Below are positions 4,532-44,487 of a DNA stretch of 64,000 nucleotides, piece by piece (within the stretch, counting starts at the first letter, position 1; every line of letters begins with the position of its first letter). Made by a program: the position numbers and the translations under genes. This stretch comes from Rikenella microfusus (GTDB lineage Bacteria > Bacteroidota > Bacteroidia > Bacteroidales > Tenuifilaceae): NCBI GenBank assembly GCA_020722565.1, contig DYKO01000004.1:65643-129642 (forward strand), given 5' to 3'. The notes under the pieces were generated by a model that was given only the letters and a program-made list of their open reading frames with translations, made no database searches and was not told the origin of the DNA.

Positions 4532-6823
4532 ATGAAACTGTCGTTATCCATTCGGCAAAAAATTTTGATTTACATTCTTGGAAGCTCATTTCTGGTTTTT
4601 TCCATAGTTTTCTATATTATAAGTGCATCATCAAGGGAGCTGGCTTATGAGCAAGCTGTAAAGCTAACCGATAGCCAGGCCTTGCTCAATGCGCAAAAGA
4701 TTGAAAGCTGGATTAATGAGGATTTTGCCGTTACCCGTACGCTAGCATCTGCCTTTTTGGAGTACCGTCAATTACCTTTCGATCAGTGGCAGAAGCTTAT
4801 ACAAGCCATGTACAACCGGGTGATAAAAACAACTCCCCAAATTGATGCCTACTGGGATAGCTGGGAGCTGAGCAATCTTGATCCCAAATGGGATAAACCC
4901 TATGGCCGTTACTTCTACATAGTTTACCGACAGGATAACGCTTTCAAAACAAAGAGTGAACTTCGAAGCCTTAATGGTGATCCAGTTACCTACGAGAATA
5001 TGAAAAAGGCAGCAAATGAAATTGTTGTTGAACCCTATACATCGGAATTGCAAAGGGGGCAAATGATGACCACCCTCTCATCACCATTTATAGAAAATGG
5101 AAAATTTATAGGTTTACTCGGTGCCGACTTGATTCTTACCCGCTTTCAGAGTTTAGTGAATGACATTAAACCCTATCCCAACAGCTTTGCAATGCTTTTA
5201 TCAAATCAAGGAGTATTTTTAGCTCATCCCGATACAGCCATTTATAAAAAGAAAATTGAAGATGCTTTTCCTGATTTTAACGAAAAATATAAAGTGTTAA
5301 GCCAAATACAAAGGGGAAAGGCGTTTTCATTTACACACACTAATGCTCTTGGAGAAAAGATTTATTACACCTTTGCTCCAATTCATATAGGAAAAACCCA
5401 AACCCCATGGTCGTTAGGAGTTGCTGTTCCCATAACCGACATTTTGGCTAAAGCCAACCATAACTACAATTTGAGTTTTTTAATCACATTTTTTGGTTTG
5501 ATTATAATTATTGGAATTGTAATGTTGGTAAGTAAACAAATTACCAATCCAATCAGAACAATTACCCAGATACTTCAGGATGTAGCTAAGGGAAAAGTTT
5601 CGGAAAAATTGAATTTGAAAGTAAAAACACATGATGAAATTAGCATAATGGTGCAAGCGCTAAGTTCCTCAATCGAGGGTATTAGCCAAAAAACCGAATT
5701 TGCCCAACAAATAGGTTCCGGAAATCTAACCATTGATCTACCCCTACTTAGCAACGATGACCTTTTAGGGAAATCGCTATTAGAAATGCGCGATAATTTA
5801 AAAAGGGCACGAGAAGAAGATGAAAAGCGTAAAATAGAAGAGGGAAAAAAGCGTTGGACAAATGAGGGAATGGCCAGGTTTGGAGAAATTCTCAGGCAAA
5901 ACAATAATAACCTTACCCTACTAAGTGAGGAGCTTATTAAAAATTTGGTTTGGTACCTTAATACCTCGGTGGGCGGTGTATTTATCCTTAATGAGAATGC
6001 CGAAACCCACGAAAAAACATTTGACCTTGTGGCCATGTTTGCCTACGACCGAAATCGTTTAATGAAGCGCAGCTACCATTTTGCCGAAGGATTAATTGGT
6101 GCTTGTGCTGCAGAGCGTGATGCCATCATTCTAAAGGAAATTCCACAGGAATACATCGAAATTACCTCGGGACTTGGTGGTACAAATCCTAATTACATAA
6201 TTATTGTTCCTTTGATATTCGAAGATGAAGTTATGGGGGTAATTGAAATTGCCTCACTTCAGGAACTAAAGGATCACGAGGTAGATTTCCTGAAAGATTT
6301 AGCCAAAAGCATTGCATCGACACTTCATACAGTAAAGGTTAATACCCTAACCGCAGAGCTACTTATGAAATCAAAGGAGCAGGCTGAGGCTATGGCTGCT
6401 CAGGAAGAGGAAATGCGTCAGAACCTCGAGGAGCTTCAAGCCACACAAGAGGAAGCTGCCCGCAAATCTACAGAACTTGAAGGATTGGCAAACGCTCTTA
6501 ATGCCTCTGCATTTGTTATGGAATTTGATACTGGCGGATTCGTTACCAACCTAAACGATAGCTACCTTGAATTTTTAGGAACTCATAGAGATGATGTAAT
6601 TGGACTGCACTACGCCGATTCGTTTTTCCTTAGCGATGCCGATAAATTAGCTATGAATAAGATTTGGAAAGACATATTAAAAGGAATTACCCGAAAACAA
6701 AAAATTAAGGTAAAAGTCAAGGGACAAGAATTTTTGCTTTTGGAAAGTTACACCCCAATTTTTGACCACAGTGGTCAGATTGTAAAAATCCTTAAAATTG
6801 CAATGGATATTACCAGCGCCTAA
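4532..6823 (+). CDS. membrane sensor: Cache-HAMP-GAF-coiled coil-PAS, no output domain
   Basis: 763 residues. A first transmembrane helix (~12-34) is followed by a ~280-residue periplasmic double-Cache region (DAYWDSWELS, GLLGADLILTRF, FAPIHIGKTQTPW), a second helix (~312-334), HAMP (SKQITNPIRTITQ, ~335-390), a GAF domain (~450-600), a glutamate-rich coil (AQEEEMRQNLEELQATQEEA) and a PAS domain at the end. Proteins of this layout usually continue into a histidine kinase, cyclase or methyl-accepting domain; here the frame stops right after PAS. It may signal through a partner, such as the divergently encoded kinase whose gene starts 128 bp away; that pairing is inference. The 3' end overlaps the convergent DUF2797 gene by 4 bp. 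Confidence 0.9.
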   Translation: MKLSLSIRQKILIYILGSSFLVFSIVFYIISASSRELAYEQAVKLTDSQALLNAQKIESWINEDFAVTRTLASAFLEYRQLPFDQWQKLIQAMYNRVIKTTPQIDAYWDSWELSNLDPKWDKPYGRYFYIVYRQDNAFKTKSELRSLNGDPVTYENMKKAANEIVVEPYTSELQRGQMMTTLSSPFIENGKFIGLLGADLILTRFQSLVNDIKPYPNSFAMLLSNQGVFLAHPDTAIYKKKIEDAFPDFNEKYKVLSQIQRGKAFSFTHTNALGEKIYYTFAPIHIGKTQTPWSLGVAVPITDILAKANHNYNLSFLITFFGLIIIIGIVMLVSKQITNPIRTITQILQDVAKGKVSEKLNLKVKTHDEISIMVQALSSSIEGISQKTEFAQQIGSGNLTIDLPLLSNDDLLGKSLLEMRDNLKRAREEDEKRKIEEGKKRWTNEGMARFGEILRQNNNNLTLLSEELIKNLVWYLNTSVGGVFILNENAETHEKTFDLVAMFAYDRNRLMKRSYHFAEGLIGACAAERDAIILKEIPQEYIEITSGLGGTNPNYIIIVPLIFEDEVMGVIEIASLQELKDHEVDFLKDLAKSIASTLHTVKVNTLTAELLMKSKEQAEAMAAQEEEMRQNLEELQATQEEAARKSTELEGLANALNASAFVMEFDTGGFVTNLNDSYLEFLGTHRDDVIGLHYADSFFLSDADKLAMNKIWKDILKGITRKQKIKVKVKGQEFLLLESYTPIFDHSGQIVKILKIAMDITSA

Positions 6824-7638
6824 TGTGCAATGGTAATCTCAATGCTATAACCCGAATGGTTACGGATATTAATTACACGCCCCGTATCAAAAATCATGTA
6901 TTGCCCTTTTATTCCGGTTAGCACACCGCTAACAGTATTTTCTTTATCGAGGTTAACCGATTTAACCCTACTGGCAACTTGAGCAATAGGGTAGGTAATC
7001 CGGTAGAGGTTATCGTTCTCGGGAATATATTCATAGCCCTTACCATTGATAAATTCCAGTGCCTTAGCCTTTTCTGTTAAAAGATTGATTGGTATTTCGC
7101 CCAAATCGGTAAGCATGCGCTGCCATGCCGTTTTATCGGCAAAAATTTTCTTGAGCTCAACCTCTATCAAGCCCGCAGTGTAACGGTTTGGGGTCCGACA
7201 AATTTTAACGGTTAGCGTTGCCCCTTGATCCACCCAGCGTATGGGGATTTGGTGGTATCGGGTTACCCCTACTTTTAAACCACCCGTCCAAGCCAGATAA
7301 ACGTAGTGGTCAACCAAACAGTTTTTCCTTGCAAATTCCATGTCGCGCGCTATACCCTCGTGCGCCCTACAGAGTTCCGGTTTGAGCACACACTCCTCGG
7401 TTTCAGGAATAGCGATAAAACATGGGTAACAATATCCCTGCCCAAACGACTTGTTGGTTTTCCGACCACATTTAATACAATGTATTTCATTCAAATATTT
7501 AAGTGAAATATATTTTCCAATAGAGTGGTTAAGCTCCAACGTCGATGCTCCCAGTTCCAAAATATAAGAGGGTTTAACATTATACTCATCACCGATGTTA
7601 CCAAAATTCATCTTTTTAAGTGTACCCGATACTATCAT
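6820..7638 (-). CDS. DUF2797 family protein with Cys-rich knuckle
   Basis: 272 residues, function unknown. The centre carries Cys54-x2-Cys57, Cys70-x2-Cys73, Cys83, Cys90 and His93, an arrangement suited to one or two zinc sites. Directly after it, HYVYLAWTGGLKVGVTR and a downstream Arg (IRWVDQGA) resemble the YVY...KVGxT...R core of GIY-YIG/T5orf172 nuclease-like domains. That resemblance is mine and needs structure comparison. The family is recognised in Bacteroidota and Actinobacteria as conserved and uncharacterised. The gene stands alone, convergent with the Cache sensor (4-bp overlap); a dispersed repeat (7683-7829) lies just upstream of its ATG. Confidence 0.85.
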   Translation of the reverse strand: MIVSGTLKKMNFGNIGDEYNVKPSYILELGASTLELNHSIGKYISLKYLNEIHCIKCGRKTNKSFGQGYCYPCFIAIPETEECVLKPELCRAHEGIARDMEFARKNCLVDHYVYLAWTGGLKVGVTRYHQIPIRWVDQGATLTVKICRTPNRYTAGLIEVELKKIFADKTAWQRMLTDLGEIPINLLTEKAKALEFINGKGYEYIPENDNLYRITYPIAQVASRVKSVNLDKENTVSGVLTGIKGQYMIFDTGRVINIRNHSGYSIEITIAH

Positions 7639-7682
7639 ATTCTCTTCTCAAATTATGCATTCCCTAAAATTATGCCAATTAT

Positions 7683-7829
7683 CCCATCCGTACAAAATTT
7701 TAATAGCATTAAACACCAGAGCAGGTTATATATTTAACTTAAACACGAACCAATACACGAATAGAATACCCATATTTTGGCTCCGTCGAGCTCATAAAAA
7801 ACAATCGGTTATTCATCTGTGTATGTAAA
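7683..7829 (-). repeat. dispersed repeat, copy 1 (inverted relative to copy 2)
   Basis: Read on the minus strand this begins TTTACATACACAGATGAATA and ends with ATTAAAATTTT...GGATG. The same order of blocks occurs at 35940-36109: CACAGATGAATAA, then CGGAGCCAAAATAT, then CGTGTTTAA, then TAAC.TGCT, then ATTAAAATTTT and GGATG. The copies differ by point changes and by a ~20-bp hairpin block present only in copy 2. It lies 45 bp in front of the DUF2797 start codon and points at that gene. Confidence 0.85.
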
Positions 7830-8012
7830 CTGCATTGCATGAGTGTTTCATATAACAATCCCCAAAATTAGGGTTGGTTCGAATAAATCATTGAAAACTC
7901 TGCACCCCAATAATAAATAGGGTTTTACTACCCTAAAAAACTTATCAATTTAAAAGATCGCCTTAATTTATGTTAATAAAATATACATTGCTTTACATAG
8001 TACCAATTATTA

Positions 8013-8053
8013 TACTATATTTGTATTGATATATTACTATACGAAATATAGTA
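8013..8053. promoter_or_regulatory. probable PadR operator: TACTATA inverted repeats
   Basis: TACTATA occurs at 8013-8019 and 8035-8041, and its complement TATAGTA at 8047-8053. The outer arms form a perfect 10-bp inverted repeat (TACTATATTT / AAATATAGTA, 8013-8022 and 8044-8053); the inner pair is TACTATA-N5-TATAGTA. The array covers the -7 element of the operon that encodes a PadR regulator, which fits autorepression. Binding is inference. Confidence 0.6.
8016..8023 (+). promoter_or_regulatory. -7 element of the PspC-PadR-PspC operon
   Basis: TATATTTG matches the Bacteroidota TAnnTTTG element; a TTTA box at 7992-7995 lies 20 bp upstream in the -33 position. It overlaps the TACTATA array. 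Confidence 0.55.
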
Positions 8054-8134
8054 CAAGTTGATTACACGATATTTAACCATAATTTTCATTCATTTTGAAG
8101 GGAATAATTGAATTATCACTTAAAATTAAAAAAG

Positions 8135-8680
8135 ATGAAACGAACCATTTCAGCCAGCTTAAACGGGAAAGCATTCACGTTTGAGGACGATGCCTACTCA
8201 GCGCTTGAGCGCTACTTAAAACTGCTCGAAAAACATTTTGAAAAAGAGCAGGGAAAAGATGAACTGTTGAGCGATATAGAGAGCCGTATAGCCGAACACT
8301 TTGAAAATTTTCTAAAAGTCCCGGGTCAGGTTATCAACCTAAGTGAGGTAAAACGTGTGATTGGATTAATGGGTATGCCAAATGAAATTGACAGTGCTGA
8401 AACAAATTTAAGCAGTTTTAATGGGAAGAACTATTCAAAACTATACCGCGACGTTGAAAATAGAATTATTGGTGGTGTTTGTTCTGGTATGGGACATTAC
8501 TGGAGGGTTGACCCTATTTTGTTCCGTCTGCTTTTTGTGCTTCTGGCTATTTGGGGCGGAATGGGAATCCTGCTCTATATAGTACTTTGGGTAGTAGTGC
8601 CTCCGGCCATTACCCCGTCACAAAAATTAGAAATGAAGGGCGAGGTTATCAATATAGACAATATTAACCGCAAGAGCTAA
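8135..8680 (+). CDS. small PspC-domain membrane protein
   Basis: 181 residues from the ATG at 8135, chosen because the paralogue at 9053 starts with the matching MK.T sequence; an upstream TTG at 8108 would only add a non-conserved tail. Residues ~1-90 are a cytoplasmic helical module (FEDDAYSALERYLKLLEKHF, GMPNEID). Residues ~100-160 form the PspC domain, with IIGGVCSGMGHYWRVDP and a hydrophobic helix ending in VVVPPA. PspC domains in the phage-shock family sense envelope stress. It leads an operon with a PadR regulator 13 bp downstream and a longer paralogue after that. Confidence 0.88.
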   Translation: MKRTISASLNGKAFTFEDDAYSALERYLKLLEKHFEKEQGKDELLSDIESRIAEHFENFLKVPGQVINLSEVKRVIGLMGMPNEIDSAETNLSSFNGKNYSKLYRDVENRIIGGVCSGMGHYWRVDPILFRLLFVLLAIWGGMGILLYIVLWVVVPPAITPSQKLEMKGEVINIDNINRKS

Positions 8681-8693
8681 TAAATCAACAACT

Positions 8694-9032
8694 ATGGCAT
8701 CGGAAATTGAAAATGCAAAAGCGCAGATGCGCAAAGGGGTGCTAGAACTGTGCGTACTCACTGTGCTCTCACGTGGCGATGCGTATGCCAACGACTTGAT
8801 AAACAAACTTAAAGAGGCCAAAATGATAGTAGTAGAGGGGACCCTTTACCCGCTACTCACCCGTCAAAAAAACGCTGGGCTGCTCAGCTACCGCTGGGAG
8901 GAATCGCCCCAGGGCCCCCCAAGGAAGTACTATTCACTCACCGAAGAGGGTCGTAGCTACCTGAACGAGCTCTTATCGAGTTGGGATGAATTAGCTGAAA
9001 TGGTCAACTCCATTCGGAATAGCGAAAATTAA
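8694..9032 (+). CDS. PadR-family transcriptional regulator
   Basis: 112 residues with the winged-helix fold of PadR: LELCVLTVLSRGDAYAND, then EGTLYPLLTRQKNAGLL as recognition region, then the wing GPPRKYYSLTEEG, then a short dimerisation helix. It sits between two PspC genes, 13 bp after the first and 20 bp before the second, so it is co-transcribed with them. PadR proteins usually repress their own operon and bind short inverted repeats; the TACTATA array over the operon promoter is the obvious candidate site. The signal it answers to is unknown. Confidence 0.93.
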   Translation: MASEIENAKAQMRKGVLELCVLTVLSRGDAYANDLINKLKEAKMIVVEGTLYPLLTRQKNAGLLSYRWEESPQGPPRKYYSLTEEGRSYLNELLSSWDELAEMVNSIRNSEN

Positions 9033-9052: not shown

Positions 9053-10600
9053 ATGAAACACACAGTAAATGTTAGTATTGGTGGATTCTCCTTTGTGCTG
9101 GAAGACGATGCCTACTCGCAGCTATCTGCCTATTTAAACGATATCAAAATTCGACTTGGGAATGACAGACTTGCTCAGGAAACGATTAACGATATAGAGA
9201 TCCGAGTTACTGAACTGTTATCGGAAAAAGTAAACACAGGGCAAGCGGTTACACTTGAAATAGTTGACCAAATAATTAATCAGATCGGGCGACCCGAGGA
9301 TATAACAGATGTATCGGGGGAGAATTTTAAACCTAAAAAGCCTAAGCGGTTCTATCGCGACCCTGATGGGTCAATAATTGCAGGGGTTTGCTCAGGGTTA
9401 GCTACGTACTTTAATGTTGATTCACTGGTATTCCGTATCATCTTTTTGGCCCTGATCTTTGCAAATGGGTTAGGCATTCTTTTATATTTTATACTATGGA
9501 TTGCTCTACCCAATGCCGTTACCCCTTTCCAAAAAATGGAAATGATGGGTGAAGGAATGAGTTTTGAAGAGATGGGGGAAAAGGTAAAGAGAGAATACGA
9601 AGAGGCTTCCGAACGCCTTAAGAAATCGAAAACTGGGAATTTTATACAAAAAATCTTTTCGCTCATAGGCCAAATTCTTCTGTATATTCTTAAAGCAGCA
9701 TTTATTGCTGTTAAAGCGATATCAATTTTAATTGGCGTTATTCTAATAATTGCAATGGTACTACTTTTTGTTGCATTTGTTGGAGCAACATTTTTCGGCA
9801 CCTACCTTTTAAACTCATCGATGGGGGAAATTGGATTATCGCTGAACCAAATTGTAACCTCGATGCTTGAAATTAGTAGTAGCTACTGGGTAACCATTCC
9901 TATCTTTCTGCTTTTTGCAATACCCATTCTTGCCCTTATCTACGCAGGTGTTCGAATAATTTTCCGATTTAAAGCAAAGGATGCCCTTTTAGGAATTATT
10001 GCAGCTGTTATTTGGGTTACATCGGTTGTGACCCTATCGCTTACCATATTTTACCAGGCAAGAAGCCTTGCGGTAAGAGAAAATGTTAAGACCACACAAA
10101 CCCTAAGAGTGTCGTCTAAAACAAAATTATTATATCTTAAAAGTTTTAACTACCCTATTGATAGCATCAACAATAGGGAACTATTAAATATTTTTGACAT
10201 GAAGTTGGTTGAAATTAATGGTGCCAAAAGACTTGTAGGCATACCTACGCTTTCCATAAAGAAAAGTGATGATGAATATCCTAGCATTGAGGTTGTTCGG
10301 CAGTCGAGGGGAATAAACCATATTACTGCCCGCTACAATGCCAAAGCCATTGATTACGGTATTACCTATAGCGACACCATAATTACTTTTGATCCGTTAT
10401 ACATTATGCCTCAGGACACCAAGTGGAAGAATCAAAAATTAACTATAAACCTTTACCTACCAGAAGGGTACGGTGTTTCCCTTGATAGCACCATGCTTGA
10501 TATACTCGGTGATAATCAGCCATTTAGCAGCTACTGGCCCGACGAAATGATTGGTAAAACCTGGGTTATGACTTACAGTGGGCTTAGGGTTAAACGATAA
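9053..10600 (+). CDS. PspC-domain multi-pass membrane protein
   Basis: 515 residues. The first ~90 residues repeat the helical module of the upstream gene (FVLEDDAYSQLSAYLNDIKI, IGRPEDI). PspC follows at ~100-165 (IIAGVCSGLATYFNVDSLVF, ILWIALPNA). Then come a charged linker (~170-200) and four hydrophobic stretches at roughly 205-240, 242-262, 285-305 and 315-335. A soluble beta-rich C-terminal domain (~345-515) resembles the adhesin-like tails often joined to PspC in Bacteroidota and is probably periplasmic. With the small PspC protein and PadR it forms a three-gene envelope-stress module; that role is inference. Confidence 0.9.
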   Translation: MKHTVNVSIGGFSFVLEDDAYSQLSAYLNDIKIRLGNDRLAQETINDIEIRVTELLSEKVNTGQAVTLEIVDQIINQIGRPEDITDVSGENFKPKKPKRFYRDPDGSIIAGVCSGLATYFNVDSLVFRIIFLALIFANGLGILLYFILWIALPNAVTPFQKMEMMGEGMSFEEMGEKVKREYEEASERLKKSKTGNFIQKIFSLIGQILLYILKAAFIAVKAISILIGVILIIAMVLLFVAFVGATFFGTYLLNSSMGEIGLSLNQIVTSMLEISSSYWVTIPIFLLFAIPILALIYAGVRIIFRFKAKDALLGIIAAVIWVTSVVTLSLTIFYQARSLAVRENVKTTQTLRVSSKTKLLYLKSFNYPIDSINNRELLNIFDMKLVEINGAKRLVGIPTLSIKKSDDEYPSIEVVRQSRGINHITARYNAKAIDYGITYSDTIITFDPLYIMPQDTKWKNQKLTINLYLPEGYGVSLDSTMLDILGDNQPFSSYWPDEMIGKTWVMTYSGLRVKR

Positions 10601-10678: not shown

Positions 10679-10749
10679 TGACCTATGGTGTAATGGTAGC
10701 ACAGCAGATTTTGGTTCTGTTAGTCTAGGTTCGAATCCTGGTAGGTCAA
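10679..10749 (+). tRNA. tRNA-Gln (anticodon TTG)
   Basis: A perfect 7-bp acceptor stem (TGACCTA / TAGGTCA), D arm GTGTAATGGTAGCAC, anticodon stem GCAGA/TCTGT with loop TTTTGGT giving anticodon TTG for CAA codons, and a T arm with loop TTCGAAT. The discriminator base is A; CCA is not encoded. It has its own promoter and terminator and stands alone. Confidence 0.96.
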
Positions 10750-10752
10750 CAA

Positions 10753-10780
10753 AACCTTGGTTTCTAAACCAAGGTTTTTT
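10753..10780. terminator. bidirectional terminator between tRNA-Gln and the MBOAT gene
   Basis: A perfect 10-bp stem AACCTTGGTT / AACCAAGGTT with a TCTA loop, flanked by A residues on the left and T residues on the right. It serves the tRNA on the plus strand and the MBOAT gene (stop at 10789) on the minus strand. Confidence 0.9.
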
Positions 10781-43131: not shown

Positions 43132-44487
43132 CTACACGTTTTTTAGTAGTGTTTTTGATGTGAGTTCGGCGTACCGTTCGTTAAAAGCATCGCAAACCTT
43201 TCGAATATTTACCATTTCGGGGATATTGGGCTCAAGGTCGTAGCCATGGTTATCGATTTTATCCTCAACATAAGCAAGCGTAAGATTTTCGACATGAAGG
43301 GCAGGCTGATAGGCATAATTTTTATTATTGGCTTGCACAACCTCATTAACCAAGCCACAGTCAATCATGATATCGAGCAGGTTGCGCATTAATCGTTGAG
43401 GAATTTGTAGGCTCTTGGAAAGTTCCAAGGAGGTAAGGGGTTTCTCGCCGTTTACAAATCGTTTGACAATTATGCTAAGTAACAGAATGGCCAACATTTT
43501 ACGGCTTCGGTGGCTAATATAGGTTGTTTCCTTCTCAAACTCATACATATCGACATTTTGGTAGGCAAATGAAATCTCGGCACCAAATAGAACCAGCAGC
43601 CAGCTGGTTTGCAACCAAATAAGAAAAAGTGGTAATGCCGCAAAACTACCATATATGGCATTGTAACGCGACACGCCAACTTGAAGCGTTATATAAACCC
43701 ATTGCAAAATAACATATCCAGAACCAGCTATAATTCCAGCAATTATTCCTGAAGGGTACGAAACCTTTGTATTGGGAATCGAAATATAAATGAAGCTGAA
43801 CAGGATCCAGATTAGCAGGTAGGGAATTAACTGAAACAAATCGATTATAAAAGGGCTAATATAGCTTACCACTTCGTGCTTCTCGGCAATTGTAGTAACC
43901 GTAGTTGCCAGGTAGATATGAATACTGCTGGAGGCAATAAGCAGTATGGGTGCAATAAGCATAATTGAAAGGTAATCAGTAAATTTGCGTATCCACGTAC
44001 GGGGCTTCTCTATCTGCCAGATATCGTTAAAGGCATGCTCAATACTGGAAAGCACATTAATTACCGACCAGAAAAGCACAACAACACCAATCCCGGCAAT
44101 AATTCCACCACCGGTACGGGCGAGTAGCGAGTTTGCAAATTCTATTACACGGGTCATTACCTCTTCCTGCCCCTTAAATTGGGTTTTTATTTGATCTTCA
44201 AGATAGCGATCGAAACCGAAACCCTTGGCAATACCAAAGGCCATAGCAAAAACAGGCACAATGGACATTAGCGTATAGTAGGTTAATGCTGACGCCTTGA
44301 TAATTACCTTGTCCTCATAAAAGCCCCGCAAAGCGATGAGCAAAACCCGCAAGTACTTAAAGGGCCACTTGAGTTTGGGCGGGAGCTCATCGAGATGCAT
44401 TCGCCATATATCGTGTAAAATAAATTTTTGGATTCGCTGAAACCAATCCCAAATTTTTTTAAAGAAAACAATCTTTTTCATTTGCAT
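43132..44487 (-). CDS. YihY/BrkB-family membrane protein with C-terminal winged helix
   Basis: 451 residues from the ATG at 44487 (a TTG at 44508 and an ATG at 44481 are alternatives). The YihY domain spans ~60-330, with KASALTYYTLMSIVPVFAMA, about six transmembrane segments and the SIEHAFNDIWQ and RYNAIYGSFAALPLFLIWLQ motifs. The last ~100 residues are a soluble helix-turn-helix-like domain (LTSLELSKSLQIPQRLMRNL) similar to that of Rrf2-like modules. Once called ribonuclease BN, the family is now seen as an inner-membrane protein of unknown job. dprA ends 27 bp upstream. Confidence 0.92.
   Translation of the reverse strand: MQMKKIVFFKKIWDWFQRIQKFILHDIWRMHLDELPPKLKWPFKYLRVLLIALRGFYEDKVIIKASALTYYTLMSIVPVFAMAFGIAKGFGFDRYLEDQIKTQFKGQEEVMTRVIEFANSLLARTGGGIIAGIGVVVLFWSVINVLSSIEHAFNDIWQIEKPRTWIRKFTDYLSIMLIAPILLIASSSIHIYLATTVTTIAEKHEVVSYISPFIIDLFQLIPYLLIWILFSFIYISIPNTKVSYPSGIIAGIIAGSGYVILQWVYITLQVGVSRYNAIYGSFAALPLFLIWLQTSWLLVLFGAEISFAYQNVDMYEFEKETTYISHRSRKMLAILLLSIIVKRFVNGEKPLTSLELSKSLQIPQRLMRNLLDIMIDCGLVNEVVQANNKNYAYQPALHVENLTLAYVEDKIDNHGYDLEPNIPEMVNIRKVCDAFNERYAELTSKTLLKNV

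Follow-up and report, generated by a model that had tools for sequence, protein, structure and literature searches.

The TACTATA repeats ahead of the pspC1-padR-pspC2 operon most likely mark an operator through which PadR regulates its own operon; judging from the sequence, this operator is laid out as two separate sites (O1 and O2) and not as three nested words. We consider it very probable that the operon's own PadR binds both sites and places pspC1-padR-pspC2 under negative feedback; the HAAS-like PspC proteins would be the likely sensors. The features on which this reading is based are listed below, with positions counted in the window, i.e., the whole 64-kb stretch of DNA that was analysed, which belongs to a 2.84-Mb draft genome (G000).

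7984-8002, plus strand: predicted operator O1, TACATTGCTTTACATAGTA, spanning the -33 region (about -44 to -26)
7993-7995, plus strand: -33-like TTA in the O1 spacer; most aligned relatives have TTG (alignment columns 9-11)
8013-8019, plus strand: third TACTATA, overlapping the -7 box and probably incidental
8016-8023, plus strand: -7 promoter box, TATATTTG, with the transcription start predicted near 8028
8035-8053, plus strand: predicted operator O2, TACTATACGAAATATAGTA, an exact TACT-N11-AGTA at about +8 to +26
8135-8680, plus strand: PspC1 (Pfam PspC, 6e-23), with a HAAS-like N-terminus at about 8213-8386
8694-9032, plus strand: PadR regulator of 112 aa, the size of subfamily 2 (Pfam PadR, 6.6e-18)
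9053-10600, plus strand: PspC2, with a HAAS-like N-terminus (about 9128-9304) and PspC, LiaI-LiaF-TM and Toast-rack domains (Pfam)

A word search of the window located TACTATA at 8013-8019 and 8035-8041 on the plus strand and at 8047-8053 on the minus strand. The segment 8035-8053 reads exactly TACTATA-CGAAA-TATAGTA, and the 10-bp inverted pair TACTATATTT/AAATATAGTA (8013-8022 versus 8044-8053) is perfect; a repeat search lists this pair in a longer form of 13 nt at 92%. Chance levels come from 5000 dinucleotide-shuffled versions of the intergenic segment (7639-8134). Three TACTATA words fell inside 41 bp in 1/5000 shuffles and TACTATA-N5-TATAGTA appeared in 0/5000, showing that the repeats reported in the original prediction, whose coordinates are exact, are real and not a product of chance. 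Any perfect 7-N5-7 palindrome was found in 542/5000 shuffles, so that palindromy alone is weak and it is the TACTATA word itself that counts. Across the whole window the word is mildly over-represented, with 14 copies against 8.5 expected (at least 14 in 4/100 shuffles).

Comparison among genomes establishes the predicted operators, their conservation, their geometry and their link to padR. Of 40 kin genomes, 31 encode a PadR relative at E ≤ 1e-5; in 30 of these the match reaches E ≤ 1e-38, in the other (G038) only 4e-7. Orthologues of padR were found in 120/198 genomes sampled from the order (E ≤ 1e-25). We assembled 210 loci from 30 kin genomes, 80 named contigs and an order sample of 100, the named contigs being the best 80 of at least 590, with titles chiefly of Bacteroidales, Flavobacteriales and unplaced Bacteroidota. 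Four loci were dropped as near-duplicates, leaving 206 non-redundant loci, and a site was called where the 1400 bp preceding padR contained TACTATG-N5-CATAGTA with no more than 2 of its 14 positions mismatched. This 19-bp palindrome is present at 173/206 orthologous loci, comprising 17/19 loci of the window's family and 156/187 others (24 of these exact), while eight control patterns of similar make-up matched 0/19 family loci and 0-7/187 of the rest. By locus source, the site was present in 8/9, 64/79 and 84/99. At two mismatches or fewer it was absent from 33/206 loci, one of which (L161) offered only 46 upstream bases to search; the profile and spacing counts given below exclude the 31/187 non-family loci whose sites exceed two mismatches. 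The original prediction had proposed looking for half-sites upstream of orthologous operons, and these counts bear it out.

Outside the family, the sites converge on a 25-bp palindromic consensus, TAGTACTATG-TATTG-CATAGTACTA, whose TATTG spacer provides the -33 TTG, and the operator also occurs in loci titled Flavobacteriales or Flavobacteriaceae. The site precedes the leading gene of the padR operon, whichever gene that is: the padR start lies within 150 bp of the site at 66/173 loci, and elsewhere pspC1 or another small gene leads. At L109 (Aequorivita), L121 (Flagellimonas) and L144 (Bacteroidia), the padR operon opens with the gene for a small hydrophobic protein, probably a membrane protein, in place of pspC1.

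The promoter that these sites flank is of the Bacteroidota type. TATATTTG occurs at the matching offset in 18/19 family loci, and a TANN(Y)TTTG box lies 9-18 bp past the site in 166/173 site-bearing loci. Because the -7 box has been placed at -12 to -5 relative to the start (PMC9723704), we derive a predicted start near 8028 and the positions of O1 and O2 listed above. The published -33 element for sigma-ABfr is TTTG (PMC7366714), and RNA-seq data of Flavobacterium johnsoniae yielded no -33 element (cited in PMC7366714). A scan with the Sigma-70 consensus gave 10 matches versus 9.9 in shuffles, i.e., no excess.

O1 differs from TACTATG-N5-CATAGTA at 2/14 positions, its right half CATAGTA being perfect; measured against TACT-N11/12-AGTA, the left end is TACA and the right AGTA is kept. 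It sits 13 bp ahead of TATATTTG, and aligned relatives share both the position and the gap. O2 starts exactly 51 bp past the start of O1. A symmetric operator profile that ignores the spacer, built from the 156 loci of other families only and thus excluding the window's family, ranked O1 first (score 17.1) and O2 second (9.1) over the 64 kb, with position 43647 next (8.8). O2 is therefore not exceptional by score alone, and the case for it rests on position. A left half-site at +51 from O1 is found in 18/19 family loci against a background of 0.23 loci per offset, and the right half-site of O2 is conserved in 9/19 against 0.10; that the right half is kept in just 9/19 would speak against a two-operator reading of autorepression. 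In the window's genome the 25-bp form is absent at three mismatches or fewer and the 19-bp form at one or fewer, and O1 is among seven places within one mismatch of a degenerate motif form. By sequence, O1 is a weakened copy with a degenerate left side, and O2 is unusually complete. A compensation of weak O1 by strong O2 among family loci was not significant (ρ = -0.38, P = 0.11; ρ = -0.36, P = 0.18 with four similar loci dropped). We also considered an RNA hairpin formed by O2 but do not favour it, since the best conserved of the sites, O1, is located before the predicted start.

The original prediction had joined the three half-sites into one array. A single nested operator of three TACTATA half-sites over the -7 box would account for the rarity of three words inside 41 bp, but we regard it as improbable: the word at 8013 does not fit the register, 2/19 family loci have a left half-site at its offset (+29 from O1), its operator-profile rank over the 64-kb window is 166 (374 with 3 flanking bases), and the conserved positions are better explained by O1. 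Only 8035-8053 is operator-like, and the TACTATA at 8013 is probably incidental. Hence the defined operator once placed at 8013-8053 stands for 8035-8053, which is O2, but that interval missed the principal operator: TACATTGCTTTACATAGTA (O1), the most conserved promoter element, ends 11 bp upstream of it. Chance repeats in an AT-rich leader, a reading that could appeal to the frequency of perfect 7-N5-7 palindromes in shuffles, can practically be dismissed, since relatives repeat these words at the same positions and with the same spacing (173/206 loci).

The site also tracks padR itself. With up to three mismatches, the 25-bp site was found in 71/89 genomes with padR versus 4/59 without it (P = 8e-20, from 148 genomes counted as independent although they are not), while a reversed control pattern showed no link to padR (25/89 versus 12/59, P = 0.34). 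Among the matches listed, 37/39 sites with at most two mismatches lay within 1.6 kb upstream of padR. Because the site follows padR across genomes and not one particular first gene, PadR is the likely binder. Two sites of the 25-bp type with 2 mismatches lie away from padR (G131:C301:7494-7518 and G062:C12:8388-8412) and are possible second targets. For the window's genome, a wider regulon was sought with a loose palindrome (two mismatches), which gave 218 matches versus 271 for the reversed control, and with a second palindrome form (150 versus 183); the loose palindrome being no commoner than its control, no regulon is readable from it. Another exact TACTAT-N7-ATAGTA lies unlinked at G000:C1:4634-4652, and a search with the -33 core across the family returned scattered unlinked matches (27 genomes).

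The PadR of the window is the only match to its own sequence in the genome at E ≤ 0.01 and, as a PadR winged helix in a protein of about 110 aa, falls into subfamily 2. Its nearest solved relative is PDB 5h20 (E = 1.7e-41; residues 5-111 aligned to 3-109 of 5h20), which we take to be BF2549 of Bacteroides fragilis; the likeness to BF2549 thus lies in 5h20 being the closest solved PadR relative. At two loci whose PadR is 91% and 90% identical to 5h20, the operator starts 53-54 bp before padR. Y31 and Y52 are invariant in 20/20 aligned orthologues and, matched by inspection and not by an alignment with LftR, appear to correspond to the signature DNA-contacting tyrosines Y28 and Y48 of LftR (PMC6457526).

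No PspC match other than PspC1 and PspC2 was found in the window's genome at E ≤ 0.001. PspA, whose presence in a genome defines the classical PspA-based Psp response, was not called there, with PF04012 below its cut-off (best 29.4 versus 33.9 bits). In Pfam, both N-termini match HAAS best (E = 0.0049 for PspC1 and 0.006 for PspC2), at scores under the Pfam cut-off (17.6 and 17.3 versus 27 bits). Homologous N-termini of both proteins were sampled as well: of 53 hand-chosen for spread from 123 text-pattern N-termini (48 PspC1, 75 PspC2), 49 matched HAAS at E ≤ 1, the best at 1.3e-10. The structural model of the PspC2 N-terminus (mean pLDDT 83) comprises a beta-hairpin and helices at 18-35, 39-59, 68-78 and 81-85 around G79-R-P81, to be compared with the three helices and the kink at GxP by which HAAS is recognised; Foldseek returned no PDB match for this HAAS-like model at E ≤ 0.001.

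In the surroundings of the operon, a divergent DUF2797 gene adjoins it (window 6820-7638, Pfam 4e-84), an inverted repeat TAGGGT-N6-ACCCTA that is terminator-like on the minus strand lies upstream of the operators (7918-7935), and just downstream of pspC2 a tRNA-Gln (TTG) is directly followed by a terminator-like 12-pair hairpin (10679-10778).

Since both PspC proteins have HAAS-like N-termini, the operon fits the HAAS-PadR dyad, which was proposed from gene neighbourhoods as an alternative to two-component systems (PMC11237479). A HAAS domain, sub-threshold in the window's own proteins, is encoded beside a stand-alone PadR gene, and the dyad as described likewise has stand-alone PadR beside HAAS, PspC, LiaI-LiaF-TM and Toast-rack, without pspA (PMC11237479). 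That study concerns proteins, and the words operator, palindrome and autoregulation are absent from its text. A related arrangement is found in Listeria monocytogenes, where LltR-lmo0600-lmo0601 combines, in one autorepressed operon, a PadR with a membrane protein of the HAAS superfamily, to which DUF1700 belongs (PMC11237479), and with a DUF4097 member (PMC6624303). In the lltR* mutant, the PadR, DUF1700 and DUF4097 genes of this operon rose 151-, 118- and 107-fold, respectively (PMC6624303). LltR-lmo0600-lmo0601 differs in gene order, and the main text describing it has no mention of PspC (PMC6624303).

The closest precedent for the operators is cdPadR1 of Clostridioides difficile, a subfamily-2 protein whose own promoter carries two TACT-N11/12-AGTA repeats that it binds in gel shifts (PMC5050560). 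As in the window, one inverted repeat overlaps the predicted promoter and the other is closer to the gene, and the padR promoter here carries the same motif, exact in O2 and with TACA at the left of O1. The cdPadR1 copies are closer together, 52 and 25 bp ahead of the gene, and the motif was reported upstream of 100 genes (PMC5050560), whereas here it precedes nearly only the padR operon among the matches listed. LmrR, LadR and the classical PadR resemble the window's system in family and in repression at their own or neighbouring promoters, but their motif is ATGT-N8-ACAT (PMC4517056), versus TACT-N11-AGTA. In listings and selected passages of open-licence papers, the BF2549 paper not among them, we recognised no earlier report of this PadR operator in Bacteroidota.

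These comparisons support PadR binding and autorepression, although by analogy. The palindromes could bind PadR as an activator or dual regulator instead of a plain repressor, as some PadR-like proteins act positively, e.g., PrhP of Ralstonia. We consider this unlikely, because a protein bound over the -33 region (O1) or past the predicted start (O2) usually blocks polymerase, and because LftR, LltR and LstR are autorepressors (PMC6624303). It is very unlikely that the site belongs to another regulator that merely happens to target the pspC1-padR-pspC2 operon, since the presence of the site tracks padR, it precedes padR operons whatever their first gene, and its motif equals that bound by cdPadR1 (PMC5050560). 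Autoregulation by PadR, as originally proposed, is well supported by the 173/206 loci with the site, by its association with padR and by the like motif of cdPadR1 (PMC5050560).

The spacing of O1 and O2 may be part of a broader pattern. Half-sites recur at -17 and +17 of the full site in 98 and 96 of the 156 non-family loci, and this recurrence gives rise to the 25-bp palindrome. Farther half-sites prefer multiples of 17 (73/2496 positions versus 169/38688 others), with the +51 position contributing 34 of the 73, and periods of 16, 18, 19, 20 and 21 gave no excess in the same loci. Counting one representative per promoter cluster, an extra half-site in register was found in 28/91 clusters versus 3-13 for other residues, and a full second operator in register in only 1 of the 91. 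The O2 offset of +51 equals 3 × 17. Tentatively, the operators may belong to a 17-bp lattice along which PadR dimers load side by side; if so, array length would tune repression strength between lineages.

Under the favoured autorepression by PadR, a PadR dimer would bind each of the two 19-bp operators flanking the promoter, at the -33 region (O1) and just past the start (O2), and bound PadR would block RNA polymerase, so that negative feedback would hold expression of pspC1-padR-pspC2 down. With their HAAS-like domains, the PspC membrane proteins would be the likely sensors. The PspC, HAAS-like and Toast-rack domains lead us to infer an envelope-stress circuit, in which a membrane stress signal would make the HAAS domain act on PadR, PadR would leave the DNA and the operon would be derepressed.

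PadR self-control is a known kind of switch, to which our results would add a widely conserved operator together with a second site specific to the family. This provides a precise predicted operator for a widespread regulator, padR being found in more than half of the genomes sampled from the order. A short reporter promoter now offers a way to test the proposed HAAS-PadR dyad, for which the case was made from neighbouring genes (PMC11237479), and a Bacteroidota promoter of the -33/-7 type is linked to a PadR motif bound in a Clostridioides.
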